A stretch of 64,000 nucleotides of DNA from Phycisphaerae bacterium (lineage in GTDB: Bacteria > Planctomycetota > Phycisphaerae > SM23-33): the NCBI GenBank assembly GCA_016782885.1, contig JADHXQ010000004.1, positions 1 through 64,000 of the forward strand, written 5' to 3'. The stretch's first letter is position 1. Each line of letters starts with the position of its first letter. Positions 869-60,409 of the stretch are shown here, piece by piece. Made by a program: the position numbers and the translations under genes. The notes below the pieces were generated by a model that saw nothing but the letters and a program-made list of their open reading frames with translations, made no database searches and had not been told where the DNA came from.

Positions 869-3800
869 TTAACGCAAGCCTTTTTTTTTGTTATTCTTAT
901 TCTGCCACAAAAACAGCCCAATAGTCGCCTGGTTCCTTTTCCGTTCGGTCTTGTCACCGCCAATCAGCATGTCGGCATAACGTCTTCGCAACTCGGTTAA
1001 TTGCAATTCCTGGTCATCGCTGAATGACCCGGCCCGTTGTGCATAGGTATCCATCCATACAATAAGCCGGCGGCGATCTTCGCCGGTGAGTTTCACTTTG
1101 TAGTGTCCTTTGGGACCATCAAGCATCGCCATAAGAGCGCTATTGGCGGCCGCACAATTACCCTCCTCTGAGATCCCCTTGCGATAGTCAACGAACACGT
1201 GCTGCTGCAGCGAGGGCTTTCCATATCTGCACAGCGAGGCATAAGCCTTTGCGCCAGTCAGGTCAAATTTCCTTCCCTTCTCATCTTTTGATTTCGGGTT
1301 GTGGCATGTGACGCACTTGGCGTCGAGGAGCGGTTGGATGAGGCGGTCGAACCTGAGCGGCCAGGAACCGCTCGGGGCCAGCGTGATTTTGGACGCCGGG
1401 CGTTTGAGGGCGAGAAGGCGTCGCGACGCGGGCGCCTCGTTGCGCCGCTCGTGACAACCTATGCAACTGAGCGTCTGCCCGGGCTGAACGTGCGTGGTGC
1501 TCCGCATGGTCTGAACCGCCATCCCGCGCGAATCAATCGCCTGGAAGAATACTATCACGCCCGAGGGCATGCGGAACTGCGCCGAGCCGTCTGCCTCGAC
1601 GGGCACGGAGCCCAGAATGCATTTGCCCGGGTCTTCGCCCGTCACGCCGATCGACGGGCGGTTCATGGTGGGTTGACACTTCGGGGGCACGGCGATTATT
1701 CGAACGGCCTTGATCTCGCCGCGCTTGACCGTTTTCAAACCGCGGTAGATGTCGGAGATCACGAATACGCCTTCCTGCGGCCCGTTGCGGTCGATGTTCT
1801 CCGGAAGGATTGGCGGGCGTTTTCGCGGCGCGATCGGCAAGGGATACATCGTGGAAATTGTCGGGTCGCGGTGCATCAGTTCCATGGTCCCCGCCTTGGC
1901 GTCAAACACGTAGACGCCAAAGCCGTTGTTGACCCTTGTGCGCCCTTCCCTGACGGTCGACTCGCTCCCCCATGATGTCAGGTACATGCGTTCCGAGAGC
2001 GGCCAGGGGTGTGCGTATTGCGACGGGGCTGTGCGTTCGATTTCCGGGAACGTAACTTCCGGCGTGAGGCGCTTCAGCGGTGCCTGACCGTCGATATCCA
2101 CAGTGGTGTCGAGCAGCACAAGCGAGCCCATGGTCTGGGCATGGTGCGCCGAGGCAGTGAAGATCAGCTTGTGCGAGTTGGGGATGGCGCGAGCCTCGAA
2201 GACGCAGTGCGGGCTGCGGGTATAGTTCCCGTAGACAATCCGCGAGTTCGTTCCGTCGGGGTTGACCGCCCAGAGGCTCATCCAGGCGTTGTTGTGGCGG
2301 TCCACGTAATCCCATCGGGCGTGAAGAATGGTCCCGTCGGCAGCGATACTGGGGGTCCATTCGAACTCCTCGAACGGTGAGATCGCGCACAGGGACGAAC
2401 CGTCGGCGTTTATCGTGTGCAGGGTGAAAGCCGCAACCGGGCGGGACGACCCGCCTCCGCATCGGACGTATACGTCCGGGCACTCCGCACTGACCACTGA
2501 CGCAGCAGCGCTTTTCATGCCAACCTGCAGGAACTGACCTCTGCGGGTCGAGGTGAACACTATCCGCCCGTCGGGCAGGTAGCGGGCGTCAAAATCATCG
2601 TACTTGCCTTTAGTCAATTTGCGGACGCCGCTGCCGTCAATGTTCATCTCGAAGACGTGATAGAATGCGTCCTCGGCGATCCGGGACTTATCGAGCTTGT
2701 TTCGCTCGCCCCTCAGATTCGGATAGTGCCTGCACCAGGCGAAGAGAACCCTCTTGCCGTCGTAAGACAATATCGGCCGGAGAAAACTTCCCGCCTGCTT
2801 GAACGAACCGCTGATGCATCGCAGCTTGGGGTTATTGCTCCTGACGTCGTCGATGATGTAGAGGCCGCCGCCCGGTCGCGACCACCAACCGTAATACTGG
2901 TCCGACATGTGCGAGTACGAACCGGGCACGCGCTTGGTCACCAGGAGCGAACGGAAGTCCAGGAGAGGATCGGCCAGCGTCATCTCCCGCAGTATCCAGC
3001 GGGCCGCGAAATAGGTTTTCTGGTCGATCTTATCCGGCGCCATACCCTTGAGGCGGGCGATGAGTTTGTCCAGTCGCCCGGCAGGGGCGGAAACGTCCAC
3101 ACTATCGCGGCGAAGTTCCTTTACGCGAAGTCGAGATTTCTTGAGGATGTCGGCGACGCGTCGGGCCCAGATGTTTTCGCCGGCCTTGCCGGACGACGCG
3201 GGAGCCCGCTCTGCCGATGATCCGACATTCGACCATTGCGAGACACTGCTCTGGTCGGCAGGCCGGCGCAGGGCGAGGTTCTTCGTCCCTCCGGGAGCGA
3301 AGATCTCCACTTCGTCCAGGTGGAAGTATGTCTTTCCGGACAACTGGAGGCGGACGTAGCGGGCGGATTTGTCCGCCAGCGTCACTGTCAGCGGTTTCTT
3401 GTCCGGGACGCCTCCGAACGTTTTACCGTTGTGCGTGTAGACCTTCCGCCACTTCCTGGCGTCGTCCGACAGCAGCACCATCATACGGTTGGTGCGGACA
3501 GCCATTGCGGGCGAATCGCATCTGTTCCACGCCACAAGTTTGCCAACCGCCTGAGACTTGCCCAGATCAACCTGCCACCACGGATTCGATTCATTTTCAG
3601 TATGGAAGCCCCACTTGCCGTTCTTCACGCCGTCGCAACCGCCGGCGGCATCTGCCGTTTTCGTCATCTTCGTTTTGGCAGGCCGGGCGGATGGAGATTT
3701 ACCGACGGGAACCTTGGCGCCAACGTTGAAGCGTTCCTGCAACAGCCAGTCGGCCTGTATCTGATGCTTCCAGGCTTCCATACCGCCTGGTGCATCGGCG

Positions 3801-3880
3801 CCGATGGCGGTCGACAGCGGCATACTGATCGCCAGTAATATAGCAACTGGTAAGATTCCGCCAAACCGAATAACAGTCAT
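869..3880 (-). CDS. Secreted hydrazine-synthase-alpha-like (HZS_alpha-type) protein with discoidin (F5/8C)-like domain, PD40/TolB-like propeller and two CxxCH motifs
   Basis: Signal peptide; F5/8C-like segment (NPWWQVDLGKSQAVGKLVAWNRCD...RYVRLQLSGKTYFHLDEVEIFAPGG); PGGGLYIIDDV motif; PDGRIVFTSTRRG propeller motifs; CIGCH and CVTCH. Confidence 0.8.
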   Translation of the reverse strand: MTVIRFGGILPVAILLAISMPLSTAIGADAPGGMEAWKHQIQADWLLQERFNVGAKVPVGKSPSARPAKTKMTKTADAAGGCDGVKNGKWGFHTENESNPWWQVDLGKSQAVGKLVAWNRCDSPAMAVRTNRMMVLLSDDARKWRKVYTHNGKTFGGVPDKKPLTVTLADKSARYVRLQLSGKTYFHLDEVEIFAPGGTKNLALRRPADQSSVSQWSNVGSSAERAPASSGKAGENIWARRVADILKKSRLRVKELRRDSVDVSAPAGRLDKLIARLKGMAPDKIDQKTYFAARWILREMTLADPLLDFRSLLVTKRVPGSYSHMSDQYYGWWSRPGGGLYIIDDVRSNNPKLRCISGSFKQAGSFLRPILSYDGKRVLFAWCRHYPNLRGERNKLDKSRIAEDAFYHVFEMNIDGSGVRKLTKGKYDDFDARYLPDGRIVFTSTRRGQFLQVGMKSAAASVVSAECPDVYVRCGGGSSRPVAAFTLHTINADGSSLCAISPFEEFEWTPSIAADGTILHARWDYVDRHNNAWMSLWAVNPDGTNSRIVYGNYTRSPHCVFEARAIPNSHKLIFTASAHHAQTMGSLVLLDTTVDIDGQAPLKRLTPEVTFPEIERTAPSQYAHPWPLSERMYLTSWGSESTVREGRTRVNNGFGVYVFDAKAGTMELMHRDPTISTMYPLPIAPRKRPPILPENIDRNGPQEGVFVISDIYRGLKTVKRGEIKAVRIIAVPPKCQPTMNRPSIGVTGEDPGKCILGSVPVEADGSAQFRMPSGVIVFFQAIDSRGMAVQTMRSTTHVQPGQTLSCIGCHERRNEAPASRRLLALKRPASKITLAPSGSWPLRFDRLIQPLLDAKCVTCHNPKSKDEKGRKFDLTGAKAYASLCRYGKPSLQQHVFVDYRKGISEEGNCAAANSALMAMLDGPKGHYKVKLTGEDRRRLIVWMDTYAQRAGSFSDDQELQLTELRRRYADMLIGGDKTERKRNQATIGLFLWQNKNNKKKGLR

Positions 3881-9685: not shown

Positions 9686-12600
9686 ATGAGCCGCAAGTAC
9701 CGAATTCTATTGCCCTTCTGCATAGTCCTGATCGTATTCGCCGGCGCAATCGAAACGCCCGCCAAACCCCCCGCCAGGACGGACGGCGCTGTGGCGACCA
9801 GCGAAGTGAAACGCGGCGGACAGAAACCGCAGCAGCTTTCAGCCAACGTCACCGGATTCGACGCCCTCACCCTGACCGCCGTGGGATACTCCTGGGGCCA
9901 GGCCGTCTGGGGAAACCCCAAACTCGTCGACGCCAAGGGCGCAGAAACCCGCCTGGTCGATCTGAAGCCCACCTCCGTCCGCGTCGGATGGGGAACCTTC
10001 TCCCGCAACAAGGGTCCCGACAACAGACCCCTGTCGATCGGCGGGGTGAAGATCCCCCGCGGGCTGTTCGCCCACGCAAACAGCGCGGTGGTCTACAAAC
10101 TCAGCGGAAAGTACGTTCGCTTTGAAGCTCAGGTGGGCATCAACCACACCGCCGGCGACAAGGGCAGCGTTGTTTTCAAGGTGTTCGACGCCAAGTCGTT
10201 CAAGAAGAGCAAAACTTTCAAGATCATCGGGAAAAGCATCATCCCAAATACCCCCGAACCGCCAAAGAAAAAGTTCAGCAGGGAAACTCTCGCATCATTA
10301 GAGAAGGCAATCACCAAATTGATCGCCGCCGGTTCCGGAAACACCGCGGCCGCCAAAAAGGCCCTGGCCGAAATACAATCGTGCATCAAATCGTTCGACG
10401 AGATCAGCAAGGGCCTCGACGCCGGGGAACCAGAAGCCATGAAACGCACCGAGGCGTTATGGGCGATCGTGCGAACCGTTCGCGTCGCCGAGCTCGACGC
10501 CCCGCTGCTCTTCGTAAAGCAGCATCCCTACTACGCCCCGCACATCTACGATGACTACCTGCCCTACCGTCCCGGCGGCGGTATCTACGTGATCGAAAAC
10601 CCCACCGCACCGATCGACCAGCATATCGTCCGTGCGATCATCGATCCCAAGACCCCCGAAACGCTCGGAGTGGGAGTCTATCGCGACCCGGACTTGTCAT
10701 TCGACGCAAAGCGCCTGGTATTCGCATTCAAGGGCGAAGACGGTAATACGAGCATTTACGAAATCGGCGTCGACGGTAAGGGCCTGAAGCGCCTGACCAA
10801 TCCGGGGTACGACTGCAGGGATAGAAAGCCCTCCCAGGGGCTCTACGGCAGGGGGCAGCACGATGTCACTCCGTGCTACCTGCCCAGCGGGCGGATCGCC
10901 TTTACTTCAACGCGCACCGGCGCGCACGTGATGTGCTTCAGCAACTACATCGACGTCCTGCACACAATGAACGGCGACGGCAGCGACATCAGGTGCATCT
11001 CGGTCAACAACCAGACCGAATTCGACCCGTCAGTCCTGCCCGACGGGCGGATCATCTACGGGCGATGGGAATACATCGACAAGTCCGCACTCTACATGCA
11101 AAGCCTCTGGACCGTGAATCCCGACGGGAGCAACGAGACCGCGTTCTTCGCAAACAACCTCGCCAAGCCGACGGCCGTACTGGACGCACGCGCCGTGCCC
11201 GGAACCGATCTGGTCGTCGCGTCGCTGACGCCCCACAACGGCCAGGCCGTCGGCGCCATCGCAATGATCGATTCGAAAGTGGGCAAGAACAGCCTTGACG
11301 CGATAACGAACTTCACGCCCGAATATCCCAAGGAAATGGACCAGGGCCTCAGGCGCGGACCGTGCGACCCCTGGCCGCTGTCGAAAGACGTTGTCCTCTT
11401 CGCCAACAACGCCCCGTCGCACGGGGCCCACGGCGTTATCGAACTGGTCGACCGATTCGGTCTCCGCGCCGTCATCCACCGCGAGCCGGACCTCTCGTGC
11501 TACGCGCCCATGCTCGTAAAACCCCGCCCCAGACCGCGGGACGTCATCTCGCTTATCCAGCCGGGCAAGCCCGCGACCTTCGTTGTCCACGATATCTATA
11601 AAGGCCTGACCGGTATCGAACGAGGACGCGTAAAGAAACTGCGCGTGATCGAAACCACTGCTCGCGTCAGCGGTATCCCGCGCGGCGGGAGATGGTGGAA
11701 CCAGGCGTTCCTGGCCAGTTGGCAGGGATCGTACGATATCAAATACTTCCTAGGCCTGGTTCCGGTCGAGAAGGACGGCTCGGCGTACTTCGAAGCGCCC
11801 CCCGGAAAAGCGATCTACTTCCAGGCACTCGACGCCGAGGGGCGGATGCTCCAGTCGCAGCGGACGTTCGTCCAGGCCGCCCCGGGAATCGCACGATCCT
11901 GCACCGGATGCCACATCAAGGAAGACAACGCGGCCCCGGCGGTGGCCACCATGCGCCCGATGGCAGCCCGAAAGGCCCCTGCCAAACTCAAAACCGAATC
12001 GTGGGGCGACGGTTTTCTCGACTACCCGACGATGGTCCAACCGGTGCTCGACAAGCGATGCGTAAGCTGTCACGGTGGCGAAAAAGGCATCGCCGGCGGG
12101 ATCGACCTGTCAGGCGGATGGACATATGCGTTCAATATCAGCTACGAAACGCTCATCAAGAACACGCTTGTCGGATTCCTGAACTGTAAGAACGGAGCGG
12201 TTCAGGCCACGAAAATACTCGATCCGCTGACCCACGGTTCGGGCGCCGCACCGCTCACCAAACTGCTGCTCGGCGGACACAAGAAACACATCAAGGACAT
12301 GCCGCAAAAGGAAATCGATCTGCTTCTGGCGTGGATGGACGGGAACTGCAACTACTACGGAACCTGGAACTACTCTCAACACGCGGTCGCAAATGCGCTG
12401 CTGTCGACCAGAGGCCCCCTGCTGGGACAGATCAAAACCGGCGGATGCCTGAAGTGCCACCCATCGGAAATCGGCAGCGATTGGGTGAACCTGAAAACAC
12501 CCGCACGAAGCCGCATACTCCGAGCTCCGATGAAAAAGGGCGAAAAATCGCTCGGTCTGGCGTCGTGTCGCGACCGCAAGGCCGCAAAACCGTCCATGCC

Positions 12601-12865
12601 GTTTGTCGGCAAGTGGACCCAACCGCCGGACGTCTTCGCCCCGAGAAAAACGCCCGCTCCCAATCCCGAAGGCAAGGTCGTCACGACATTCGCCGACACG
12701 ACCAACGCGACCTACCAGGCGATGCTGAAAATAATCACCGACGCCCGCGCAGCGGCTTTGAAGAGTCCACGAGTTGACATGCCCGGGGCGATAATCGAAA
12801 GAGGCGTCTGGCGAGAGCTAGCGCCCCTGGGACCGCCGGTCCTGCCGAAGGGAGCATCAAAATGA
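9686..12865 (+). CDS. Secreted HZS_alpha-like protein with N-terminal NPCBM-like module, PD40-like propeller and three CxxCH motifs
   Basis: Signal peptide; VRVGWGTFSRNKGPDNRPLSIGGVKIPRGLFAHANSAVVYKLSGKYVRFEAQVGINHTAGDKGSVVFKVF (NPCBM-like); RPGGGIYVIEN; EKDGSAYFEAPPGKAIYFQALDAEG; CTGCH, CVSCH, CLKCH. Confidence 0.82.
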   Translation: MSRKYRILLPFCIVLIVFAGAIETPAKPPARTDGAVATSEVKRGGQKPQQLSANVTGFDALTLTAVGYSWGQAVWGNPKLVDAKGAETRLVDLKPTSVRVGWGTFSRNKGPDNRPLSIGGVKIPRGLFAHANSAVVYKLSGKYVRFEAQVGINHTAGDKGSVVFKVFDAKSFKKSKTFKIIGKSIIPNTPEPPKKKFSRETLASLEKAITKLIAAGSGNTAAAKKALAEIQSCIKSFDEISKGLDAGEPEAMKRTEALWAIVRTVRVAELDAPLLFVKQHPYYAPHIYDDYLPYRPGGGIYVIENPTAPIDQHIVRAIIDPKTPETLGVGVYRDPDLSFDAKRLVFAFKGEDGNTSIYEIGVDGKGLKRLTNPGYDCRDRKPSQGLYGRGQHDVTPCYLPSGRIAFTSTRTGAHVMCFSNYIDVLHTMNGDGSDIRCISVNNQTEFDPSVLPDGRIIYGRWEYIDKSALYMQSLWTVNPDGSNETAFFANNLAKPTAVLDARAVPGTDLVVASLTPHNGQAVGAIAMIDSKVGKNSLDAITNFTPEYPKEMDQGLRRGPCDPWPLSKDVVLFANNAPSHGAHGVIELVDRFGLRAVIHREPDLSCYAPMLVKPRPRPRDVISLIQPGKPATFVVHDIYKGLTGIERGRVKKLRVIETTARVSGIPRGGRWWNQAFLASWQGSYDIKYFLGLVPVEKDGSAYFEAPPGKAIYFQALDAEGRMLQSQRTFVQAAPGIARSCTGCHIKEDNAAPAVATMRPMAARKAPAKLKTESWGDGFLDYPTMVQPVLDKRCVSCHGGEKGIAGGIDLSGGWTYAFNISYETLIKNTLVGFLNCKNGAVQATKILDPLTHGSGAAPLTKLLLGGHKKHIKDMPQKEIDLLLAWMDGNCNYYGTWNYSQHAVANALLSTRGPLLGQIKTGGCLKCHPSEIGSDWVNLKTPARSRILRAPMKKGEKSLGLASCRDRKAAKPSMPFVGKWTQPPDVFAPRKTPAPNPEGKVVTTFADTTNATYQAMLKIITDARAAALKSPRVDMPGAIIERGVWRELAPLGPPVLPKGASK

Positions 12866-32012: not shown

Positions 32013-34607
32013 CTATTCGAGTGTCGGTTTGGCGATCTCGCCGCGGAGCTGCGCCTCGCCGCCCTCCTTCTCGTACACGCCGTAGAACGGCGAGCAGGAA
32101 TCCAACCACACGGTTATGCGGCGCATTTCGTCGGGCGAGAGCTTCACCTTGTAATGCCCCTTCTGGAGCAACTGATAGAGGTTTGAGGCCTGTGCCCCGA
32201 AAGCACCCGGTATAGTGCGATACCAACCGGGATCGCCCCAACTCTTACCGCCGTAATCGTAGAAACCGTACTTCGGCGCCAGGTTCAGATAGGAAACGAA
32301 GTAGGATGTCTTCGGATTCATATAACTGCCCCGGGACGTCTTGACGATCTTCGAATCCAGCGGCAGGGTCTGCTTGGTCTTGTCTTTATTGTCCTTGTTC
32401 TTCTCGTGACATTTGACGCAGTGCTTGTCGAGCACGGGCTGGATGAGTCGCGGGTAGCTGAACGGGTTGGTACCGTCGGCCTCGGGCTTGAGCACTGATG
32501 GAGCCCGTTTCATCGCCATGGTCACTTTCCTCGACGGCGAGGTGGCAACGCCGTATTTGGACTCGTGGCAACCCTGGCAGATCGTACGCTCGCCAGGCTG
32601 GAAATGCGTGCCCGACCGCATCGACATAACCGCCAGACCCTTTTCGTCGAGCACCTGGAAGAACAGCTCCTTGCCCGACGGTACGGTGAAGTGGGCGCTG
32701 CCGTCTTCTTCGACCGGCACAGTTCCAAGCACCGCGCGGGTGAGGTTTATCGAATCTCTGGCCTGGGGGATCTGGCAGCCGGTTGCGTGAGTCACCCGCG
32801 CCGATGCGACCGACAGCGGGAAGACCTGGTAGACGCGCAGAGATTTGATCTTCACGCCTTTGGGCAGGGGCTTGGCGGCGTTGTAGACGTTGACCACGCC
32901 CACGGTGGCGGACTTGCCCGGATTGGCTTCGAGGCGTTTGGACATCTCCGGAATCACGGGCGGTTTTTTGCGGGCCTTGATCGGAATGGGACTCTGCGAA
33001 GCGATCGACGGGTCACGGTAGATCAGTTCCCTGTTACCGAAAGAATCGACGAGATAGATCCCGTACATTGTCCCGCTGGTGCCTCTTCCTCCGGGGTCAT
33101 ACGCGCAAATGTAGTAGTCTTCGTTCAGCGGCCAGGGCTGGCCGTACAGCATCGACCGCTGCTTGTGGGTCTGCGATTCGGGGAAGCCCGCGTCGGGTGT
33201 CACGCGTTTCACCGGACCCATCGCGTCGTCGTCTTCGGCGCGGGGATCGATAATCACCATCGAACCGAACGATTGAGCGTGGTGCGGAGCGGCGACGGCC
33301 ACGAACTTGTTCGAACCGGGAATGGCGCGGGCGTCGACCTCCATGTCCGGGCGCTTGTTGCGCGTGGCGTAGTTTCCGTGTACGGCGCGCGGGTCGCGTC
33401 CGTCGGGAGTGGTGGTCCACGCCATGTGGGCGATCTGTCCGTGCCGATCAACGTAGTCCCATCGCGTCCAGATGATCATTCCGTCGTTTGTGACGCTGGG
33501 ATGCCATTCGTTTGTCTCGTGGAACGACAGGCATTTGATACCGCTGCCGTCTGCGGCCATGTCGTAGAGGGTGTAGGTCGGGCAGACACGCCCGCAACGC
33601 AGGTATCCGCCGCGCCGCTCGGTGATGAAAGCGATCCGCCCCGAGGGCATGAAGCACGGGTCGAAATCGTTCCACGTACCGTCGGTCAGCATCCGGAGAT
33701 TCTTCCCGTCGATCCCGACGGAGAAAACATGGTAAGACCGTTCCTTGGCCCAATGCCCTCTCGACGGGTCCGTATGATAATCATGCCCCCGCCCGCCGGT
33801 GCACTCGACGTAAGCAAACGCCACAGTCTTTGCGTCAAACGACAAATCGGGCGAAAGGAACGATCCGCCCACGGTATTATCGGCCCCGCCGCTTCCCATA
33901 CCGTTGTAACGAACCTTCCAGAGTTTCTTTGGACCACCGGAGAGCTTCTGCCCCTTCAGGCGTCCGGTGGCGACCACCGACTTGTCCAGCAGGCTGCGGA
34001 TCTTCGGTTTCGCTCCGAACACGTCGCTGAGAACGTAAAGCCCCCCGCCGGGGCGCTGGGCCGTACCGTAGTACTGGTCACACATGTGATTGTAGCCCGG
34101 CAGCAGACGCTTGATAATCAGCATCTCGCTGAAGTCGAGCAGCGGATTGGAAAACGCGATACGCCGGCGAAGTTCGCAGACCTTGTCGAACATCGCACGG
34201 CGTGCCGGGGCGTCTTTGGGGTCGACCTTGGCGGCGGAGGCTTTCAGCGCCGCCAGTTCGCTCTTCATCTTGTCGAGCCTGGGCGCCTTGGGCATTGCGG
34301 CGATATCCGCAAGCAGCGCCTCACTGCGGCGCAGGATAATGTCCAGAGCGTCGCGGTCGGTGTCGAGTATCATCGACTCCTTGCGGAAAGTCTCCGATGC
34401 AAACTTGTTGATCGTCGCCCGCGACTTGATATCCCTGGACAACGTGGCGAAACGCCGGTCGGCCTCTCCGGCGGGATACGCCGAACCCGACGGCGCCGGT
34501 CCGGTCCAGGCGTCAGGCTCGGCGACAGCCCGACCGCAAAGCAAACTGGCAACCATCAGCCCCAAGATAACTTTCGAGATACCATTTGTGTTCATTTCGT
34601 TTCTCAC
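32013..34607 (-). CDS. Exported HZS_alpha-like protein with PD40-like propeller and two CxxCH motifs
   Basis: LLPGYNHMCDQYYGTAQRPGGGLYVLSDVFGAKPKIRSLL; SGRIAFITERRGGYLRCGR; EEDGSAHFTVPSGKELFFQVLDEKG; CQGCH, CVKCH. Confidence 0.82.
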   Translation of the reverse strand: MRNEMNTNGISKVILGLMVASLLCGRAVAEPDAWTGPAPSGSAYPAGEADRRFATLSRDIKSRATINKFASETFRKESMILDTDRDALDIILRRSEALLADIAAMPKAPRLDKMKSELAALKASAAKVDPKDAPARRAMFDKVCELRRRIAFSNPLLDFSEMLIIKRLLPGYNHMCDQYYGTAQRPGGGLYVLSDVFGAKPKIRSLLDKSVVATGRLKGQKLSGGPKKLWKVRYNGMGSGGADNTVGGSFLSPDLSFDAKTVAFAYVECTGGRGHDYHTDPSRGHWAKERSYHVFSVGIDGKNLRMLTDGTWNDFDPCFMPSGRIAFITERRGGYLRCGRVCPTYTLYDMAADGSGIKCLSFHETNEWHPSVTNDGMIIWTRWDYVDRHGQIAHMAWTTTPDGRDPRAVHGNYATRNKRPDMEVDARAIPGSNKFVAVAAPHHAQSFGSMVIIDPRAEDDDAMGPVKRVTPDAGFPESQTHKQRSMLYGQPWPLNEDYYICAYDPGGRGTSGTMYGIYLVDSFGNRELIYRDPSIASQSPIPIKARKKPPVIPEMSKRLEANPGKSATVGVVNVYNAAKPLPKGVKIKSLRVYQVFPLSVASARVTHATGCQIPQARDSINLTRAVLGTVPVEEDGSAHFTVPSGKELFFQVLDEKGLAVMSMRSGTHFQPGERTICQGCHESKYGVATSPSRKVTMAMKRAPSVLKPEADGTNPFSYPRLIQPVLDKHCVKCHEKNKDNKDKTKQTLPLDSKIVKTSRGSYMNPKTSYFVSYLNLAPKYGFYDYGGKSWGDPGWYRTIPGAFGAQASNLYQLLQKGHYKVKLSPDEMRRITVWLDSCSPFYGVYEKEGGEAQLRGEIAKPTLE

Positions 34608-45314: not shown

Positions 45315-46799
45315 ATGGATACCAGACGAACGTTTCTGAGAAACAGTTGCCTGGCCGCCGCCGCACTCCAGGCACCGTCGATTCTTACCGCCGCGACCGC
45401 CACGCGCGACCGCCCTAACATACTGTTCATCATGACCGACCAGCAGTTCGGCGACGCCATGAGTTGTCGCATGGGGAACAAATGGCTCAGCACGCCGGCG
45501 ATGGATTCTCTTGCCGCAAACGGCACGCTCTTCGCCAACGCATACAGCCCCAACCCGCTCTGCATGCCCGCGAGGAACTCGATCTTCACCGGGCGATACC
45601 CACACGAAACGGGCGTAACCAAAAACGCACGCACGAAGATCGACACCGAAGAGTTCCTGAACATGGGCAACTACTTCCGCCGCGCCGGCTACGAGACAGC
45701 CTACTTTGGAAAATGGCATCTCTGCTTCAACCAGAAGGACAAGAACGCACACGGTTTCCAGACCGCCCAGTGCCTGCACGGTAACGGTCACGACGGCGAG
45801 GTCGGCGACTTGTCGGCGAAATATCTCGCCGGCAAGCAAGGCGTGCAGGGCAAGCCATTCCTGGCGGTGGTCAGTCTCAGCAACCCGCACGACATCTGCC
45901 AATTCAGCCGCTTCCAGAAACTCCCCAGCGGCCCGGTCGGCAAGACCCCGCCGCCGGACAAGTGCCCCCCGATCCCCGCCAACCTCGCGGCGCCGATCAA
46001 CGAAACCGACACCATGACAACGCTTCGCAAGGGCTACCAGGGTCCGGGAAGCTTGTTCCCCGTTGGCGATTTTACCGAAGGCCAGTGGCGCCAGTTGCGA
46101 TGGGGTTACTATCGCCTGATCGAGAAAGTCGACGCCGAGATCGCCAAGGTGCTGGTCGCCCTCGGCAAGTCCGGCCACGAAGAGAATACCGTCGTCATCT
46201 TCACCAGCGACCATGGCGATTGCGCGGGCGCACATCGCTTCAACCAGAAAACGGTTTTCTACGACGAGTCCGCCCGCGTTCCGCTGATCGTCTGCCGCAA
46301 GGGCGCCACGAAGAAACGCCGGTTCGACAAGCTCGTGAACACTGGAATCGACATCCTCCCGACGATGCTCGATTTTGCCGGCATCGCAATACCGAAGAAA
46401 CTCCCCGGTCGCAGCGTCCGCCCGATCGTCGCCGGCAAGACCCCCGCCAGCTGGCGCGACCACGTGGTGATCCAGAACCACTTGAGTCAGACGGTGGTCG
46501 TAGACGGCATCCGCGCGATCGCCCAGGGCAGAATGGTGCGGACCGAGCGGTACAAATACTGCGTGTACGATCACGGTACACAGCGCGAGTCGCTGGTCGA
46601 CATGACCAACGATCCACTGGAAACCAAGAACCTGGCGACCGACCCATCGCACAAGAAGACCATCCAAATCCACCGCAACATCCTGCTGGCGTTCGCGGAC
46701 AAACACAAAGACCTCCTGGCCAAACAGATGCTCGCAGACGGCATGCCCGCAATACCCTTCAAAGCCGGCAAGCCCAACAAAAAGAAGCGAAAGAAATGA
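45315..46799 (+). CDS. Sulfatase, Tat-exported
   Basis: In-frame ATG at 45315 gives DTRRTFLRNSCLAAAAL; RPNILFIMTDQQFGDAMSC; NPLCMPARNSIFTGRYPHETGV (CMPAR motif); FTSDHGDCAGAH. Confidence 0.94.
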   Translation: MDTRRTFLRNSCLAAAALQAPSILTAATATRDRPNILFIMTDQQFGDAMSCRMGNKWLSTPAMDSLAANGTLFANAYSPNPLCMPARNSIFTGRYPHETGVTKNARTKIDTEEFLNMGNYFRRAGYETAYFGKWHLCFNQKDKNAHGFQTAQCLHGNGHDGEVGDLSAKYLAGKQGVQGKPFLAVVSLSNPHDICQFSRFQKLPSGPVGKTPPPDKCPPIPANLAAPINETDTMTTLRKGYQGPGSLFPVGDFTEGQWRQLRWGYYRLIEKVDAEIAKVLVALGKSGHEENTVVIFTSDHGDCAGAHRFNQKTVFYDESARVPLIVCRKGATKKRRFDKLVNTGIDILPTMLDFAGIAIPKKLPGRSVRPIVAGKTPASWRDHVVIQNHLSQTVVVDGIRAIAQGRMVRTERYKYCVYDHGTQRESLVDMTNDPLETKNLATDPSHKKTIQIHRNILLAFADKHKDLLAKQMLADGMPAIPFKAGKPNKKKRKK

Positions 46800-49700
46800 A
46801 TATGAACAAGCAAGTAATTATCGCACTGACCCTGATCCTGACATTCGCCGCTACGGGATATGCCGCCGAGGCGCCCAAAAGCGATCGCGTCAAGGGCGGG
46901 CTGATCGTCCACGTGGGCGCCACTGACGGGAAAGGCACGATCTCGCTTGCAGGCGACAACTTCGTGGTCCAGGGCCTGTCGACCAAACCCGAAGCCGTCG
47001 CGGCCGCTCGGGAACACCTGAAATCCACCGGGAAGTGCGGCAAGGTTTCAATCGACCTGTTCGATGGCGAGCATCTGCCCTACGTTGACGAACTGGTGAA
47101 CCTGATAGTGATCCGTGAAGCCGGAAAACTCACGCGCGACGAGATCGAACGCGTGTTGGTACCTGGCGGACATGCAGTGTTCGCGGTCGAGAACGGAAAA
47201 AGCTTCAGCAAACCGCATCCCAAGGCGATCGATGATTGGACGCACTATCTGCACGACCCGGCCGGAACGTCGGTCTCGCAGGATACGCTGGCCGGGCATC
47301 CGCGAGGCATGCGGTGGACCGGCGGACCGTATTGGGCGCGAAGCCACGAACACACGAACAGTCTCAACGCCATGGTCTCGGCGGCTGGTCGGATGTTCTA
47401 CGTTATGGACGAGGGCCCGACCGACTCGATCCAACTCCCCGCCAAAACCTTCCTCACCGCACGCGACGCGTTCAACGGCGTGGTGCTCTGGAAACGCCCA
47501 TTGAAAAACTGGTTCAACGCCCTGTTCCCTCTCAAGAGCGGTCCCGGCTGGCTGCCCAGACGCCTGGTCGCCGTCGGACAGCGAGTGTACATCGCACCCG
47601 GCGTCGGGCAGGACATGCTGTGTCTCGATGCGGCCACGGGCAAAGTCATCCGCACATACCCCGACACGCCCAGCACCTTCGAACTGATCGTCTCCGGCGG
47701 GGTCATTTTCGCCGCGGTCGATCCCAAAGGCAAAGTCGTCGACTACCAGCAGGAAAACGCAAACTGCTGGGCCGAACGCGGCCGGGCCAGCAAGCGATGG
47801 GGCTGGACCCCCGAAAACGGCTCGCGCGTGATCAAGGCGATCCAGGCTGAAAGCGGAAAGGTCCTTTGGAAGCATGAGGGCCCCGTGGCGCCGATGACAC
47901 TCTCGACCAACGATAAAATGGTATGCTTCTACGACGGATCAGCCGTAATCGCCCTCGACAAGACCACCGGAAAGAAACTCTGGCAGGCCGACGTCGCCAA
48001 AACCAAGCTGATCGGCACGGGCTACAGCGGTCCGCGACTGGTCATCTGCAAAGACCGCATTCTGCTGTCGCCGATGGGGAGCATGTTCGCGATCTCGATC
48101 AAAGACGGCAAGGTGCTCTGGTCGGTCAAGGGCAAACCGCGATCGGGGCACTACAGCCTCGAAGACTTCTTCGTCCTGGGCGACAAAATCTGGGTGCTCG
48201 GACGTCGCAACAACGGAGTCTACACCACCTACAACCTCGCCGACGGTAAGCAGCTCGATGTGTACTCAAATCCGATCAAATCGTTCTATATCCACCAACG
48301 ATGCTATCCGGGGCGGGCGACTGTCAAGTACCAACTCCCCCCGGTCATGGGGATGACGGTCTACGATATGGAAAAGGACACGTGGGTTAACAATCACTGG
48401 GTGCGCGGGGTCTGCGTTTACGGCGTGATGCCCGCAAACGGTCTGGTCTACGCCGGTCCGCACGCATGCGCCTGCTATTACCAGTCAAAGCTCAACGGTT
48501 TCAACGCACTGTCGCCCGTGGCGCAGGCGCCCAAGGCCCCACCGGTCGATAAAAGGCTCACAAAGGGACCGGCGCTGGGCAAGTGCAAGGATGCGGCGAA
48601 ATCCCCGGCCTCATGGCCCGTATTCCGACACGATAACACTCGCAGCGGATACGCGAAAACCGACGTCCCGGCCGATCTCGGTCAGGCATGGGGCAAGAAG
48701 TTCGGCACGAAGCTCAGCCAGCCGGTCGTCGCCGGGGGGAAACTTCTCGTTAGCGCAGTCGACACCCACACCGTTTGCGCGCTGGATGCCAAAACGGGTA
48801 AGGAGAGCTGGCATTTTGTGGCCGGCGGGCGCGTTGATTCGCCCCCGACTATCCACGCCGGCATGGCGATCTTCGGCTGCGCCGACGGAAACGTATACGC
48901 ACTGCGCCTCGCCGACGGGAAACTCGCCTGGCGTTTCCAGGCCGCCCCGAACGACCGCAAGCTGATCGCATACGGACAGGCCGAATCGGTCTGGCCGCTC
49001 TCGGGCAGCGTTCTGATCCAGAGCGATTCAGCCGGTAAGGCCCGCCTCTATTGCGTCGCCGGACGGTCGATGTTCCTCGATGGCGGGCTGCGAATGCTGA
49101 TGCTCAAGCCCCTCACCGGCGAGCTTATCTCCGAGAATGTTATGGACGGTAAGGTTCCCGGGACGGACAAGGGCCTCCAGGACCTCATGATGGGCAAGCA
49201 CATGCCCGTCACGTCGCCCGACATCCTCTCCAGCGACGGGCGCCACGTCTACATGAAGTCGCAGACATTCACCATGGACGCCAAGCGGGTGCGCGTTCGC
49301 CCGCAGCGCCCCGACACCCAATACGACCAGGAAGTGCATCTGTTCTCGCCGATCACGTTCCTGGACAAGTCATGGCACCAGCGGACGTACTGGATCTACG
49401 GACGCGCCGCCGGGGAGGGATGGGCCGAATTCCAATACCCTCCCAAGCGCGTCCCATGCGGCCGCATAATGTGCATTGACGAAAAGAACGCATACTCATA
49501 CGCACGCGACCTCGAATTGGTTTGCAACACTTCCGTCAGCGAATACCGCCTCTACAGCGCCGCCAAGATACCCGCTCGCAAGGTCGGTGAGCCCCGGCTC
49601 GAAGGAACCTGGATAAAGGGCAAGACCCCCACCGCCAAGGGCGACCAACTGGCCGGTAACACCGTCGACTGGAAGAAACTCGCACAGCAACCCAAGAACA

Positions 49701-50053
49701 AGCTCAGCGCCCTGGACTACAACTGGATCAACGACGAGCCGGACGTAATGGCCAAGGCGATGGTCCTGGCCAACGACCGCCTCTTCATCGCCGGTCCGCG
49801 CGACGTAGCCGACGAGAAGGCCCTCTGGGGCCGCTCGAACGACAAGATCTTCCAGACAAAAATGCAGGAGCAGGCCGACTGGCTCAAAGGCGCCCACGGC
49901 GGAGTAATGCAGGTCTACAACAAGAAGACAGGCAAGAAGCTCAAAGAATACAAGCTGGACGCCCTGCCGAGTTTCGATGGCCTGATCGCCGCCGAGGGCA
50001 GGCTTTACATGATAACCGACACCGGCTCGATCATCTGCTTCAAGGGCAAATAG
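46796..50053 (+). CDS. Exported fusion of methyltransferase-like Rossmann domain and PQQ/BamB-like beta-propeller (paralog B)
   Basis: The listed ORF 45962-50053 begins inside the sulfatase; ATG at 46796 gives MNMNKQVIIALTLILTFAATGYAAEAPKSDRVKGGLIVHVGATDGKGTISL. ATGA overlap with the sulfatase stop; linker DDWTHYLHD; propeller motifs. Confidence 0.86.
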   Translation: MNMNKQVIIALTLILTFAATGYAAEAPKSDRVKGGLIVHVGATDGKGTISLAGDNFVVQGLSTKPEAVAAAREHLKSTGKCGKVSIDLFDGEHLPYVDELVNLIVIREAGKLTRDEIERVLVPGGHAVFAVENGKSFSKPHPKAIDDWTHYLHDPAGTSVSQDTLAGHPRGMRWTGGPYWARSHEHTNSLNAMVSAAGRMFYVMDEGPTDSIQLPAKTFLTARDAFNGVVLWKRPLKNWFNALFPLKSGPGWLPRRLVAVGQRVYIAPGVGQDMLCLDAATGKVIRTYPDTPSTFELIVSGGVIFAAVDPKGKVVDYQQENANCWAERGRASKRWGWTPENGSRVIKAIQAESGKVLWKHEGPVAPMTLSTNDKMVCFYDGSAVIALDKTTGKKLWQADVAKTKLIGTGYSGPRLVICKDRILLSPMGSMFAISIKDGKVLWSVKGKPRSGHYSLEDFFVLGDKIWVLGRRNNGVYTTYNLADGKQLDVYSNPIKSFYIHQRCYPGRATVKYQLPPVMGMTVYDMEKDTWVNNHWVRGVCVYGVMPANGLVYAGPHACACYYQSKLNGFNALSPVAQAPKAPPVDKRLTKGPALGKCKDAAKSPASWPVFRHDNTRSGYAKTDVPADLGQAWGKKFGTKLSQPVVAGGKLLVSAVDTHTVCALDAKTGKESWHFVAGGRVDSPPTIHAGMAIFGCADGNVYALRLADGKLAWRFQAAPNDRKLIAYGQAESVWPLSGSVLIQSDSAGKARLYCVAGRSMFLDGGLRMLMLKPLTGELISENVMDGKVPGTDKGLQDLMMGKHMPVTSPDILSSDGRHVYMKSQTFTMDAKRVRVRPQRPDTQYDQEVHLFSPITFLDKSWHQRTYWIYGRAAGEGWAEFQYPPKRVPCGRIMCIDEKNAYSYARDLELVCNTSVSEYRLYSAAKIPARKVGEPRLEGTWIKGKTPTAKGDQLAGNTVDWKKLAQQPKNKLSALDYNWINDEPDVMAKAMVLANDRLFIAGPRDVADEKALWGRSNDKIFQTKMQEQADWLKGAHGGVMQVYNKKTGKKLKEYKLDALPSFDGLIAAEGRLYMITDTGSIICFKGK

Positions 50054-55487: not shown

Positions 55488-58400
55488 ATGAAATCGAGTC
55501 AAATATTACTGTCAACTATCGTCGCTTTCTGCGGAATCACGTACTGCCCCACTTCGAGCAGCGCGGAAACCGCCCCTGACCTCGTGGCCAAATCGGGTGT
55601 CAAAGGCGGGCTTATCGTCCACGCCGGATGCGCCGGCGGTGAGTTCACCGGCGCTCTCAGGATAAACGACCGCTACGTGGTCCAGGGCCTCGACCCCGAT
55701 CCGGACAACGTTGCCAAAGCGAGAAACCGCCTGCGCAAGGCGAAGCTTTCGGGCCCGGTTAGCGTGATACAATGGGATAATAAAAAGCGCCTCCCTTACG
55801 CCGACAACCTGGTAAGCCTCCTGATCGTAGAATCGGGCGCCGACCTCGCGGACGCCGAGATCATGCGCGCGTTGAGCCCCAACGGAGTGGTCATGGTCAA
55901 GACCTCCAACGGTTGGAAAAAACGCACCAAGCCCCGCCCCGAAGAGATCGACGAGTGGACGCACTACCTGCACGGACCGGATAACAACGCGGTGGCCGAG
56001 GACACGGTCGTTGAAGCACCGCGACACATGCAGTGGGTTTCCGGACCTCGCTGGGGGCGCAGCCACGATCATCTCTCAAGCGTAAGCGCGGTGGTCTCGT
56101 CCGGTGGACGGATATTCTCCATCGTTGACGAGGGGACCATGGCATCGGTAAAGCATGCGTCGAGTTGGATGCTGGTGGCTCGCGATGCCTTCAACGGCGT
56201 GCTGCTCTGGAAGAAGCCCGTATCTCCCTGGGAGGATCAGCTCCGGCCTTTCAGAAGCGGACCGGTCGAGCTGCCCAGGCGTCTGGTAGCCGTCGGCGAT
56301 CGCATTTATGCGACGCTGGGCTACAACAAACCGGTGGTGGCTATCCATGCGGCAACGGGCGAGGTATTACACACTTACAAGGACACCGACAACGCCCACG
56401 AGATCGTCTGTAGCGATGGGAAGCTCTTTGTAGTCATAAGCCAACCGCTGAAAGAACCAAGCTTCACCACCGGCAAGGTTCTGCGGAAGATGCCCCTCTG
56501 GCGCGGCGCATACGGTGAGTACACCATACAGTACATGCCCAAGCATATTGAAGTATTCGACGCAAAGTCCGGTAAGCTGATCTGGAAGAAAGATGACAAA
56601 GACACCGCGGAGATCCTTCCGCTTTCGATGATAGTCAGCCAGGGGCGTGTCTTTTTCCAGAACGGGACAGATCTGGTGGCATTGAAGGCGGCTACGGGCG
56701 AGGAGTTGTGGAAGGCCAAACGCCCCTCGCCTCGCCAGCGCTATGCATGGCTGGTCCCGACGGTTGTGGTGAAAGACGGCGTGGTGCTTTCGGCGGACCG
56801 TGCGGCCGATAAGCCCGTCGACACCGGCGCCAAGGACAAGGGGGCGATGGAGTGGCAGGTTTCGGCAAACCATAAGCTGAAAGACGGGCTGATCATGGCG
56901 TATGATGCCGCCAGCGGTAAGGAATTGTGGACGGCACCTTGTCACGAGGGCTTCAACTCCCCCGCCGACCTGTTTGTCATCGGAGGGAAGGTCTACAGCG
57001 GTCCCCTGGCATGGGGAAAGCAGCCGGGGATCACGAACGTCTACGACCTGAAGACGGGCAAGGTGGTCGCCACCAAACCACCTGACCAGAAGCTCTACAC
57101 GTTCGGATTCGGTCATCACCGCTGCCACCGCAACAAGGCCACCACGAAATACATCATCCAGGCGCGAGCGGGCATAGAGTTAATCGACGTCAGCGACCTG
57201 TCTCGCGCGACGGCCGATCACTGGGTCCGCGGCGCCTGCCAGTACGGCACGCTTCCCTGCAACGGTTTGATGTACGCTCCGACACACCCCTGCGCATGCT
57301 ATATAACCGCCAAGCTGAACGGTTATAACGCACTCAGCGGTAAGCGGGCGGTTCCATTGAACCAAGGACCCGAACAGTTAGTCAAGGGAGCGGCGTTCGG
57401 CAAGATCCCGCAAGCTGAAAAGCGAAATCCGCAATTGGATTGGCCGACGCTTCGCGGAGACAATGCCCGCAGCGGATCGACCGCGGTCAAACTTTCGACG
57501 AAACCGGAGCGCCTATGGGAAACATCGCTCCCCGGACCGCTGACCGCCGTGGTGGTCGCGGGCGGAAGGTGCTGCGTCGCACGCCGGGAGTCCAATACCG
57601 TCTGCGCACTGAAAGCCGATGACGGGGCGCCTCTCTGGTCTTTCACGACCGGTGGACGCATCGATTCCCCCCCCGCCGTTTTCGGTCAGGCGGTCTACTT
57701 CGGCTCGGCCGACGGGTGGATCTACTGCCTTCGCGCAAGCGACGGTGCGCTTGCGTGGCGTTTCCGGGTGGCGCCCGAGGCTCGACAGATCGTGGCCTAC
57801 GAGCGGTTGGAGTCGGTCTGGCCGGTCCACGGCAGCCTGCTGGTCTGCATGGGTCCCAAGGGCACAGCGACGGTGTACGCCGCGGCTGGCAGATCGTCCT
57901 ACGTTGACGGAGGGGTGTATCTCTGCGGTCTCGACGCGGTCAGCGGTAAACTGCTCTTCAGACGCAGGATTTCACACATGGACCCGAAAACGGGCAACGA
58001 ACCGCAGAGCGTGATTAAGGGCGTGATCATGCCCGGGGCGATACCCGACGTGTTGTCCACCGACGGGAAGTCTATCTTCATGAGGCACCAGCGATTCGAT
58101 CTCGAAGGTAATTCTCTGGCCCAGGACGTCGATCACCTCTTCTGTTCTGCCGGATTCCTGGACGATACGTGGTGGCATAGAACGTATTTGCAGTTCGGAC
58201 AGTTCATGAAAGGCGGTTACGGCGGCTGGACCACCGCGGGCAACAGCCGCATCTCCGGTAAAGCCCTCGTAACCGACAACAAGCGAGCCTTCGGATTCGG
58301 ACGGACCGAATACACGATGACCGGCAACCACATCGGGATAAATTCGGAATTCCGCCTCTTCGCCGCCGACATGAAGACCTTCGCCCCGGCGAAGGCCCAG

Positions 58401-58721
58401 CCCGAAAAAAAGAACCGGCGCCGCGGGGCACAATCAAAAAAGTCCAAAGTGAATTACATATGGTCGAAATCCATCGGTATCTACCCGCGTGCGATGCTCC
58501 TCACTGGCGAGGCCCTGTTCCTTGCCGGACCGGGCAATGTCGATGACTTCTTTGCACCCGCACCCGGCGGAGGCGTTCTGCTGCAGACGGTGTCACTGGA
58601 AGATGGAGCCAAAATATCCGAAATCAAATTGAAGGCATCGCCCGTATACGACAGCTTCGCCGCCTGCAACGGACGCCTCTACTTCACAACAATCGACGGA
58701 CGCGTGGTCTGCTGGAAGTGA
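55488..58721 (+). CDS. Exported fusion of methyltransferase-like Rossmann domain and PQQ/BamB-like beta-propeller (paralog C)
   Basis: Signal peptide; GVKGGLIVHAGCAGGEFTGALRINDRYVVQGLDPDPDNVAKARNRLRKAKLSGPVSV...LPYADNLVSLLIVES; linker DEWTHYLHG; propeller motifs. Confidence 0.86.
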   Translation: MKSSQILLSTIVAFCGITYCPTSSSAETAPDLVAKSGVKGGLIVHAGCAGGEFTGALRINDRYVVQGLDPDPDNVAKARNRLRKAKLSGPVSVIQWDNKKRLPYADNLVSLLIVESGADLADAEIMRALSPNGVVMVKTSNGWKKRTKPRPEEIDEWTHYLHGPDNNAVAEDTVVEAPRHMQWVSGPRWGRSHDHLSSVSAVVSSGGRIFSIVDEGTMASVKHASSWMLVARDAFNGVLLWKKPVSPWEDQLRPFRSGPVELPRRLVAVGDRIYATLGYNKPVVAIHAATGEVLHTYKDTDNAHEIVCSDGKLFVVISQPLKEPSFTTGKVLRKMPLWRGAYGEYTIQYMPKHIEVFDAKSGKLIWKKDDKDTAEILPLSMIVSQGRVFFQNGTDLVALKAATGEELWKAKRPSPRQRYAWLVPTVVVKDGVVLSADRAADKPVDTGAKDKGAMEWQVSANHKLKDGLIMAYDAASGKELWTAPCHEGFNSPADLFVIGGKVYSGPLAWGKQPGITNVYDLKTGKVVATKPPDQKLYTFGFGHHRCHRNKATTKYIIQARAGIELIDVSDLSRATADHWVRGACQYGTLPCNGLMYAPTHPCACYITAKLNGYNALSGKRAVPLNQGPEQLVKGAAFGKIPQAEKRNPQLDWPTLRGDNARSGSTAVKLSTKPERLWETSLPGPLTAVVVAGGRCCVARRESNTVCALKADDGAPLWSFTTGGRIDSPPAVFGQAVYFGSADGWIYCLRASDGALAWRFRVAPEARQIVAYERLESVWPVHGSLLVCMGPKGTATVYAAAGRSSYVDGGVYLCGLDAVSGKLLFRRRISHMDPKTGNEPQSVIKGVIMPGAIPDVLSTDGKSIFMRHQRFDLEGNSLAQDVDHLFCSAGFLDDTWWHRTYLQFGQFMKGGYGGWTTAGNSRISGKALVTDNKRAFGFGRTEYTMTGNHIGINSEFRLFAADMKTFAPAKAQPEKKNRRRGAQSKKSKVNYIWSKSIGIYPRAMLLTGEALFLAGPGNVDDFFAPAPGGGVLLQTVSLEDGAKISEIKLKASPVYDSFAACNGRLYFTTIDGRVVCWK

Positions 58722-58738
58722 CGAGCGGAACGATTGCA

Positions 58739-60409
58739 ATGACGCGGATTATCACTACAAAATCACTTTCGTTCCGCGGGACCCGGTGTTTCGCCGGACT
58801 GCTGGTTATGCTTGTATCCGCCACCGCTTCGGCGCGGGACGAAACGCCGGCGGCACCGAACATGACGCTCGACGACGGAAAACAACTGGTGAATCTCGCG
58901 CGCAGCGGGATGGTCGAGTTCATCAAGTCGCGCACTCGGGCCGACAAGTACCCCATTCCACCGGCGATGAAGCACCTTACCACGCAATTCCGCCCCGCGA
59001 GCGTAACGCTGCGGAGTTCGGGCAAGCTCCTGGCCAGGAGTTTTCGGGCGGATACCAACGTCTGCCGCAGCGTTCTTTCTGCCGCCCTGGACGCTATGCG
59101 CAGCAGCAATCTGCCCGATCGCGTTACCCCGTCGCTGCTGGCGGCGATGACTGTGGAAATCGAGGTCGCAGGACCGGCCAGGGCTGTATCCTCCAGAAAA
59201 CTCGCTAGTTGCATAGTGCAGGGGCTTACCGGCGTGAAGGTCTCACGCGGGAAGTCCAAGGGATTCCTGCTGCCTTCGACCACCTGCCGACTCGGTCTCT
59301 CGGCGCAACAGACGCGTGCCTCGTGCCTGGCCCAATTGACCGACACCGCCGGCGGCAAGGCCCATGTGGAAACCTGGTCGATATTCGGTTCAAAGCATTA
59401 TGTCGGTTATCCCGACGGAGCGGTGGTCCAGTTGTTCAGGGGCAAGATTCTCGTCCCGCCGGAAGGACTCACCGACGAGGTCCTCTCCAGTGCCGCAGCC
59501 GCGGCCGGGCTGTTCCTGACAAGAGCCCAGGAGTCCAACGGAATGTACAATATACCGAACCGCAAACCAGCGCTTCACGAACACCTCTACGCAACTTACG
59601 CCATGGCAAAACTCTCAAGGCGCGACAGCAGGAAACTCTTTTCGGTAAGCGTGAACCGCGCCCTGGCGTATGCAGCCAGGTTCGTGCTGGCGGATGACAA
59701 ACAGGCCAGGGTCCTGGCCGGATCGTCCCGGGGGCGGACAACGGAAAGTCCGACCCGCGCAACAGCATGGCTGCTGCTTGCCCTCACCGAACTGCCGGTC
59801 GAGACCGCCAACAGGAAACTCGCGGAAAAACTCGCCGGGGCGTTGCGGCAGGATGTTGTTTCAGTGGTCGGGCCCGAGCACGGGCTTGCCACTCCGAGCC
59901 AACTGCTGGACTGGAGTGTGGCGCTGCTGGCGTTGCGTAGATTCCTGCCAAAAAACGAGAGCACCGCCAAACTCCTCGATCCGATGCGCAAGACAATGCG
60001 GGCCTGGTCAAAGAGCGGACAAAAGCTCAGCCCGTTGGTATTCCGCGGGACGGCGGCGATGGGCTCCCTGCCGAAATGGCGGCAGATAGACGATTCCGAC
60101 CTGCCCGATCGGCGCGGCGGATTCATCTCGTCGCCGGCCGAACCGACCACGCTGGATACCGCAATCGCGGCGGTATGCCTGTCCGAAGCCATTGAATCTG
60201 CGACGACAACCCAGGGCGCCAAAACCGCCATCAGCAAACAGATACTCCGGGCCAGGCGGTTCTGCTACCAGATGCTCTACAGGAGCCGGGAAGCCTATTG
60301 GACCGCCCAACCGGTGAAAATGATCGGCGCCCTTCGAATCTCCCCTGGTGCCTCAACAGTGGGCCTCGACGCCTGCGCCGCGGCAATCGAAGCGTTCCTG
60401 CTGAAGTAG
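58739..60409 (+). CDS. Exported protein with AMMECR1-like N-terminal region and helical-toroid-like C-terminal region
   Basis: ATG 58739 gives signal peptide FAGLLVMLVSATASA; RPASVTLRSSGKLLARSF...LLAAMTVEIEVAGPARAV...GLTGVKVSRGKSKGFLLPS resembles AMMECR1 spacing; C-terminal alpha-helical repeats (ESNGMYNIPNRKPALHEHLYATYAMAKLSRR). An alternative GTG at 58718 overlaps the upstream stop. Confidence 0.6.
   Translation: MTRIITTKSLSFRGTRCFAGLLVMLVSATASARDETPAAPNMTLDDGKQLVNLARSGMVEFIKSRTRADKYPIPPAMKHLTTQFRPASVTLRSSGKLLARSFRADTNVCRSVLSAALDAMRSSNLPDRVTPSLLAAMTVEIEVAGPARAVSSRKLASCIVQGLTGVKVSRGKSKGFLLPSTTCRLGLSAQQTRASCLAQLTDTAGGKAHVETWSIFGSKHYVGYPDGAVVQLFRGKILVPPEGLTDEVLSSAAAAAGLFLTRAQESNGMYNIPNRKPALHEHLYATYAMAKLSRRDSRKLFSVSVNRALAYAARFVLADDKQARVLAGSSRGRTTESPTRATAWLLLALTELPVETANRKLAEKLAGALRQDVVSVVGPEHGLATPSQLLDWSVALLALRRFLPKNESTAKLLDPMRKTMRAWSKSGQKLSPLVFRGTAAMGSLPKWRQIDDSDLPDRRGGFISSPAEPTTLDTAIAAVCLSEAIESATTTQGAKTAISKQILRARRFCYQMLYRSREAYWTAQPVKMIGALRISPGASTVGLDACAAAIEAFLLK

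Follow-up and report, generated by a model that had tools for sequence, protein, structure and literature searches.

The motif-I residue of ordinary class-I SAM methyltransferases is acidic, either Asp or Glu. PQQ-type propellers that lack PQQ include the exported, eight-bladed BamB (YfgL), and genes annotated as bamB can be numerous in planctomycetes: Tuwongella immobilis is reported to have 28, with products of 43–193 kDa, some of which were detected by proteomics (PMC8567305). The available part of that paper does not ascribe a methyltransferase domain, a circular permutation or an operon partner to these paralogs.

We analyzed a 64,000-nucleotide stretch of DNA from a Phycisphaerae bacterium (contig JADHXQ010000004.1, positions 1–64,000), referred to in the following as the window, using ORF-based gene calls throughout. 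The original prediction, made from the sequence alone, was that three exported paralogs in the window fuse a methyltransferase-like Rossmann domain to a PQQ/BamB-type propeller. No characterized member was named in it, and we found none in the open-access full-text literature. Our preferred reading, which we consider reasonably probable, is that these are exported double-propeller proteins with a domain that descended from a cytosolic class-I SAM methyltransferase and no longer works as one. Beyond that prediction, the analysis revealed a second propeller, four near-invariant cysteines, a Planctomycetota-wide expansion, a circular permutation and operon partners.

Architecture of the three window proteins

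All three ORFs (P0001, P0002 and P0003; Table 1) were found where predicted. They have a common architecture, M-A-B, where M is the class-I methyltransferase-fold domain and A and B are the two PQQ/BamB-type propellers. The full-length proteins are 35–38% identical to each other, and the motifs named in the prediction aligned in register. Two start codons are possible for P0001, and its ortholog (L034, 79% identical) begins where the second ATG aligns. For full-length P0001, AlphaFold gave a model (pLDDT 88, pTM 0.90) with a Rossmann-like domain at residues 35–138, followed by two propellers. A strongly hydrophobic stretch lies immediately N-terminal to the M domain in 65/67 family members, compared to 13/80 control windows, in agreement with the signal peptides originally proposed. 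Export, as predicted from this stretch, is a general trait of the M-A-B proteins.

Table 1. Features of the window proteins, their neighbors and the c3 locus. Positions refer to the window, except for the last two rows, which refer to locus L094 on contig C111.
Feature	Position	Strand	Remarks
P0001, predicted exported M-A-B protein, 1085 aa	46796..50053	+	start 46796 or 46802
P0002, predicted exported M-A-B protein, 1077 aa	55488..58721	+	
P0003, predicted exported M-A-B protein, 1060 aa	16230..19412	-	
Putative signal peptide of P0001 (~residues 1-24)	46796..46867	+	sequence MNMNKQVIIALTLILTFAATGYAAEA; low model confidence, helix 5-19; family-wide hydrophobic stretch
M domain of P0001 (residues 30-147), truncated class-I methyltransferase fold	46883..47236	+	Methyltransf_11 21.5 bits; AlphaFold strands
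Propeller A of P0001 (residues 148-600)	47237..48595	+	model, Foldseek, domain profiles
Four-cysteine motif of propeller A, P0001 (C503, C540, C558, C560)	48302..48475	+	
Propeller B of P0001 (residues 605-1085)	48608..50050	+	model, Foldseek, domain profiles
M domain of P0002 (residues 35-156)	55590..55955	+	AlphaFold pLDDT 94; Foldseek
Propeller A of P0002	55956..57410	+	domain profile
Propeller B of P0002	57438..58718	+	domain profile
M domain of P0003	18957..19307	-	Methyltransf_25 19.3 bits over full model
Propeller A of P0003	17670..18956	-	domain profile
Propeller B of P0003	16233..17654	-	domain profile
Sulfatase gene overlapping P0001 start (ATGA); same pair at ortholog L034	45246..46799	+	
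Predicted exported AMMECR1-like protein overlapping P0002 stop (GTGA)	58718..60409	+	
c3 of L094, contig C111	12013-13239	-	
CAP (permuted propeller protein) of L094, contig C111	3014-6751	-	

The prediction had proposed an HMM search of the N-terminal region and an AlphaFold model with a structure search, and both returned the methyltransferase family. P0001 and P0002 scored 21.5 and 22.7 bits against Pfam Methyltransf_11, above the curated cut-off of 21.2, and the Methyltransf_11/25 match at the N-terminus of the window copies spans the complete profile length. Across the family, 51/63 N-domains matched Methyltransf_11/25 (best 8e-12), and a profile of the 63 N-domains matched solved SAM methyltransferases among the PDB sequences at 6e-9 (3dlc). 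The M-domain strands in the P0001 model are at residues 35–40, 56–62, 84–88, 101–106, 121–129 and 135–138. When the P0002 N-domain was modelled alone, the pLDDT was 94, and 50 of its 50 best Foldseek matches in the PDB were methyltransferase-fold proteins. Based on these profile and model matches, the M domain is homologous to class-I SAM methyltransferases and has a Rossmann-like fold.

The remaining ≈900 residues were correctly predicted to be of the PQQ/BamB type, with Pfam PQQ_2 stretches at E-values below 1e-30, but their organization as two propellers, each with about eight blades by the strand pattern of the P0001 model, had been missed. By Foldseek, the nearest structures to the P0001 propellers were tetrathionate hydrolase and BamB, with PQQ alcohol dehydrogenases also listed. 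The best NCBIfam family was BamB (TIGR03300; 88, 76 and 70 bits for P0001, P0002 and P0003, with a cut-off of 285), whereas the PQQ-dependent alcohol dehydrogenase family (TIGR03075) scored 44, 48 and 42 bits with a cut-off of 480.

These matches bear on two other readings of the family. In one, the proteins would be oxidoreductases of a quinoprotein-like kind whose substrates are sugars or sulfated polysaccharides, and the M domain would be a cap. The PQQ_2 and PQQ family matches and the alcohol dehydrogenases among the Foldseek matches are consistent with this. However, P0001 falls far under the PQQ dehydrogenase cut-off (43.6 vs 480 bits), its top structures are PQQ-free propellers, and no adjacent Cys-Cys pair was seen on inspection of its sequence. 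In the other, they would be BamB-kind scaffolds of envelope biogenesis, which together with a LolCDE-like pair (see below) would place outer-membrane proteins or lipoproteins. BamB is the best-scoring NCBIfam family and is among the best structures, and a second planctomycete, T. immobilis, has 28 bamB-annotated genes, but 88 bits is well short of 285, and P0001–P0003 have no lipobox cysteine by sequence inspection.

The four cysteines of propeller A were invariant in 30/30 M-A-B family members. Propeller A, in which these residues may form disulfides or a metal site, is probably the functional center of the protein.

Decay and constraint in the M domain

The original prediction described the SAM-binding motifs as degenerate, and this was borne out across the family. 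The motif-I residue was acidic in only 1/63 members and was His in 48/63; in the window genome, most ordinary methyltransferases still have the acid. The two glycines of the loop and the acid of strand 2 were jointly present in 32/63 members, G47 in 55/63, and Asp at the adenine-binding position in 25/63. The residue at the end of strand 2 is an acid in P0002 and P0003 and Ser in P0001. The structural residues E, R, P and G of the “E..RxLxPxG” motif were kept in 62–63/63 members. In the models of the window copies, the helix and strand expected after strand 5 are missing, leaving the seven-stranded sheet incomplete.

Between P0001 and its L034 ortholog, dN/dS was 0.16 for the M domain and 0.15 for each of the two propellers. 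For L027 and L087, in which motif I is destroyed, the corresponding values were 0.20 for the M domain and 0.23 and 0.28 for the propellers. By this measure, the M domain is under purifying selection on par with the propellers. Together with the fold found by Foldseek and the matches to the N-domain profile, these ratios led us to reject an origin of the Rossmann domain by chance or as a pseudogene. As to whether the M domain is a METHYLTRANSFERASE, the combination of acid loss, truncation and equal constraint suggests that it has retained a role other than methyl transfer. Most likely, it is a repurposed pseudo-methyltransferase, as the original prediction had suspected.

Alternatively, the M domain might still have an adenosine compound such as SAM or SAH as its ligand after export, making these proteins exported sensors or even methyltransferases. 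The glycines and strand-2 acid in about half of the members, the frequent G47, the Asp at the adenine position, and the SAM-type residues of permuted relatives such as L096 would all fit such a role, and the near-canonical pocket signature in 32/63 members counts against a pure pseudo-domain, in which its loss might be expected. On the other hand, the motif-I acid is gone in nearly all members, and those whose motif I is destroyed are equally constrained. The window copies have also lost the acceptor-binding part that would come after strand 5, and the periplasm is not expected to contain SAM. We consider this alternative unlikely, although it is the least unlikely of the three. The repurposed domain of our preferred reading would sit between the two propellers as a wedge or docking module without catalytic activity.

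Distribution of the family and surroundings of the window copies

Copy numbers were derived from profile searches of draft assemblies. The window genome (4.95 Mb, 187 contigs, 91% complete) contains ≈28 M-A-B copies, which are dispersed and in some cases cut by contig ends. The original prediction had also proposed a count of how widely the fusion occurs: a profile of the N-domain plus linker, at a threshold of 1e-10, matched 49/294 sampled Planctomycetota genomes and 38/210 genera, nearly all of the matches being in long ORFs. The 11.7 Mb genome of Pirellulaceae bacterium BS150m-G36 (G329, the record behind L035) had about 100 family N-domain matches, a poor fit to a housekeeping scaffold of the BamB kind. 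Judged from these searches, the family is Planctomycetota-wide, large and scattered. In one genome of the same genus as the window, four family genes lie near-tandem (L090:2764-18980, + strand). Nearly half of the Methyltransf_11 matches in the window genome are in long ORFs of the kind typical of this exported family. Plasmid records gave generic propeller matches only.

In a tree of propeller A, the copies of the window genome were intermixed with those of other genomes, and the nearest relatives within the same genome were more than 1.1 changes per site apart, indicating that the expansion is old rather than recent. The closest relative of P0001 was the L034 ortholog, that of P0002 was L024, on another contig, and that of P0003 was L028. 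The three window copies are thus not each other's nearest relatives in this tree, and we rejected a local duplication as their origin.

Many sulfatase and glycoside hydrolase genes lie in the window, and the presence of three copies in one polysaccharide region had led to the prediction that they have a role in it. Polysaccharide genes near the window copies, and the sulfatase gene that overlaps P0001 and likewise its L034 ortholog, would also suit quinoprotein-like enzymes. The prediction was not supported for the family as a whole. The window genome has about 107 sulfatase matches, and 8/28 family genes were within 5 kb of one, compared to 6.0 expected (P 0.24). Proximity was at chance for 0.5, 2 and 5 kb and reached P 0.03 at 10 kb only. 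With 28 dispersed, anciently diverged copies and no excess within 5 kb, a general polysaccharide association is not supported. The chance-level sulfatase proximity of the 28 copies also speaks against the quinoprotein reading, which we regard as the least likely of the three alternatives.

The gene overlapping the P0002 stop encodes an apparently exported AMMECR1-like protein, with an AMMECR1-like domain followed by ≈300 aa without a family match; AMMECR1-type proteins are usually regarded as cytosolic. Three other window proteins, at 869-3880 (-), 9686-12865 (+) and 32013-34607 (-), contain the hydrazine synthase alpha middle domain (PF18582), with two or three CxxCH haem motifs apiece.

The permuted sister protein, its operon and comparison with known systems

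In several relatives, the downstream gene encodes a predicted exported CxC protein, c3, which has a strict CNIPVFRYALERW at its start and CSCQVKxxNPGxDL at its end. It had no Pfam or PDB sequence match and one weak NCBIfam match below the cut-off. Pirellulaceae-type loci have the gene order M-A-B protein, c3, ModA, ModB, ModC. We found c3 in 41/294 Planctomycetota genomes, 39 of which are among the 49 genomes with a family-profile match (Fisher 1e-36, relatedness ignored; some weak family-profile matches in this count are the permuted sister protein described below). When only strong family matches (<1e-25) were considered, c3 was present in 26/32 genomes with such a match and 15/262 others (3e-21, relatedness ignored).

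Outside Planctomycetota, a “Bacteroidales bacterium” record (G331, locus L037) had four family matches and c3. It was the sole carrier of full family members among 297 sampled genomes of that record's phylum, and no other of the 297 and 198 genomes sampled from the phylum had the family matches and c3; the record may therefore be mis-binned or reflect transfer. The three other matches in this phylum were short ORFs of 222–286 aa, which were taken as ordinary methyltransferases.

Most or many of 20 c3 neighborhoods contained a LolCE-like FtsX permease and a LolD-like ATPase, one or two ModA-like binding proteins, and ModB-like and ModC-like proteins; about half contained a large propeller protein, here called CAP. 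In the window genome, the genes of this conserved operon follow one another without interruption on contig C111, all on the same strand (L094:3014-13239, -), in the order c3, permease, ATPase, two ModA-like genes, ModB-like, ModC-like and CAP. Domain profiles gave the order B-M-A in 10/10 c3-linked CAPs: with the B profile, the N-terminal propeller scored 128–185 bits and the C-terminal propeller no more than 6; with the A profile, the C-terminal propeller scored 57–137 bits and the N-terminal propeller 22–39. By these scores, CAP is a circularly permuted sister of the M-A-B proteins. Two more window-genome proteins have the B-M-A order, and in a third, M-A is accompanied by a B-type stretch in the adjacent ORF. 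Some CAPs seem to keep the part after strand 5 that is missing in the window copies, which likewise counts against a pure pseudo-domain. Some CAPs or long M-A-B proteins carry malectin or laminin-G modules. Of the four-cysteine motif, the CxC part was present in 9/10 CAPs, the tenth being a truncated ORF, which shows that the cysteine motif predates the permutation.

Permutation requires that B is beside M and that the C-terminus of A is near the N-terminus of B, so the protein is probably a compact three-domain body, with M, A and B packed together. The M-A-B proteins would be periplasmic or on the cell surface, and the ligands or partners that they read probably differ from paralog to paralog. 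The occurrence of CAP in or beside the c3/LolCDE-like/ModABC-like operon points to an ancestral job in which a ligand might be captured or handled in the envelope and then moved by the ABC systems. The LolCE/LolD-like pair would also suit the BamB-kind scaffold, which we consider improbable, slightly less so than the quinoprotein reading. Tentatively, and with considerable doubt, we propose a previously undescribed planctomycete envelope system, in which the operon of c3, LolCDE-like and ModABC-like genes and the B-M-A protein serves dispersed, permuted pseudo-methyltransferase receptors, each with its own ligand, via the four-cysteine propeller. The operon may describe the permuted sister only, as it is distant from the window copies.

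If correct, our reading would account for part of the unexplained “BamB/PQQ-like” expansion in the planctomycete envelope. It would also clearly exemplify how the fold of a cytosolic cofactor-dependent enzyme can be exported and kept under selection without its original chemistry, and would show a three-domain protein that has undergone circular permutation in nature. The c3 operon offers a first handle on the function of an anonymous family with tens of genes per genome.

The M domain resembles Methyltransf_11/25 (UbiE-like) class-I enzymes, such as PDB 3dlc, 3bus (RebM) and 4pne (SpnF), in its fold, in the order of strands and helices through the first five strands, and in its glycine loop, LPF/LPY and E..RvLkPGG motifs. 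Unlike these enzymes, it is exported and fused to two propellers, its motif-I acid is mostly replaced by His and its strand-4 Asp by Asn, and it is truncated after strand 5. The family is like BamB in being exported and having eight-bladed PQQ-type propellers without PQQ, but differs in falling far under the BamB cut-off, in its two propellers, methyltransferase-like domain and four conserved cysteines, in its many copies and in having no lipobox. Tetrathionate hydrolase (PDB 7cqy, 6l8a), the best Foldseek match, is a PQQ-type propeller that compares in overall fold, with only 13–15% identity across one propeller. The PQQ-dependent alcohol dehydrogenases share the propeller superfamily, but the family scores far under their cut-offs. 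The bamB paralogs of T. immobilis are likewise a large BamB-annotated planctomycete family, some members of which have been detected by proteomics, according to the available part of the report (PMC8567305).
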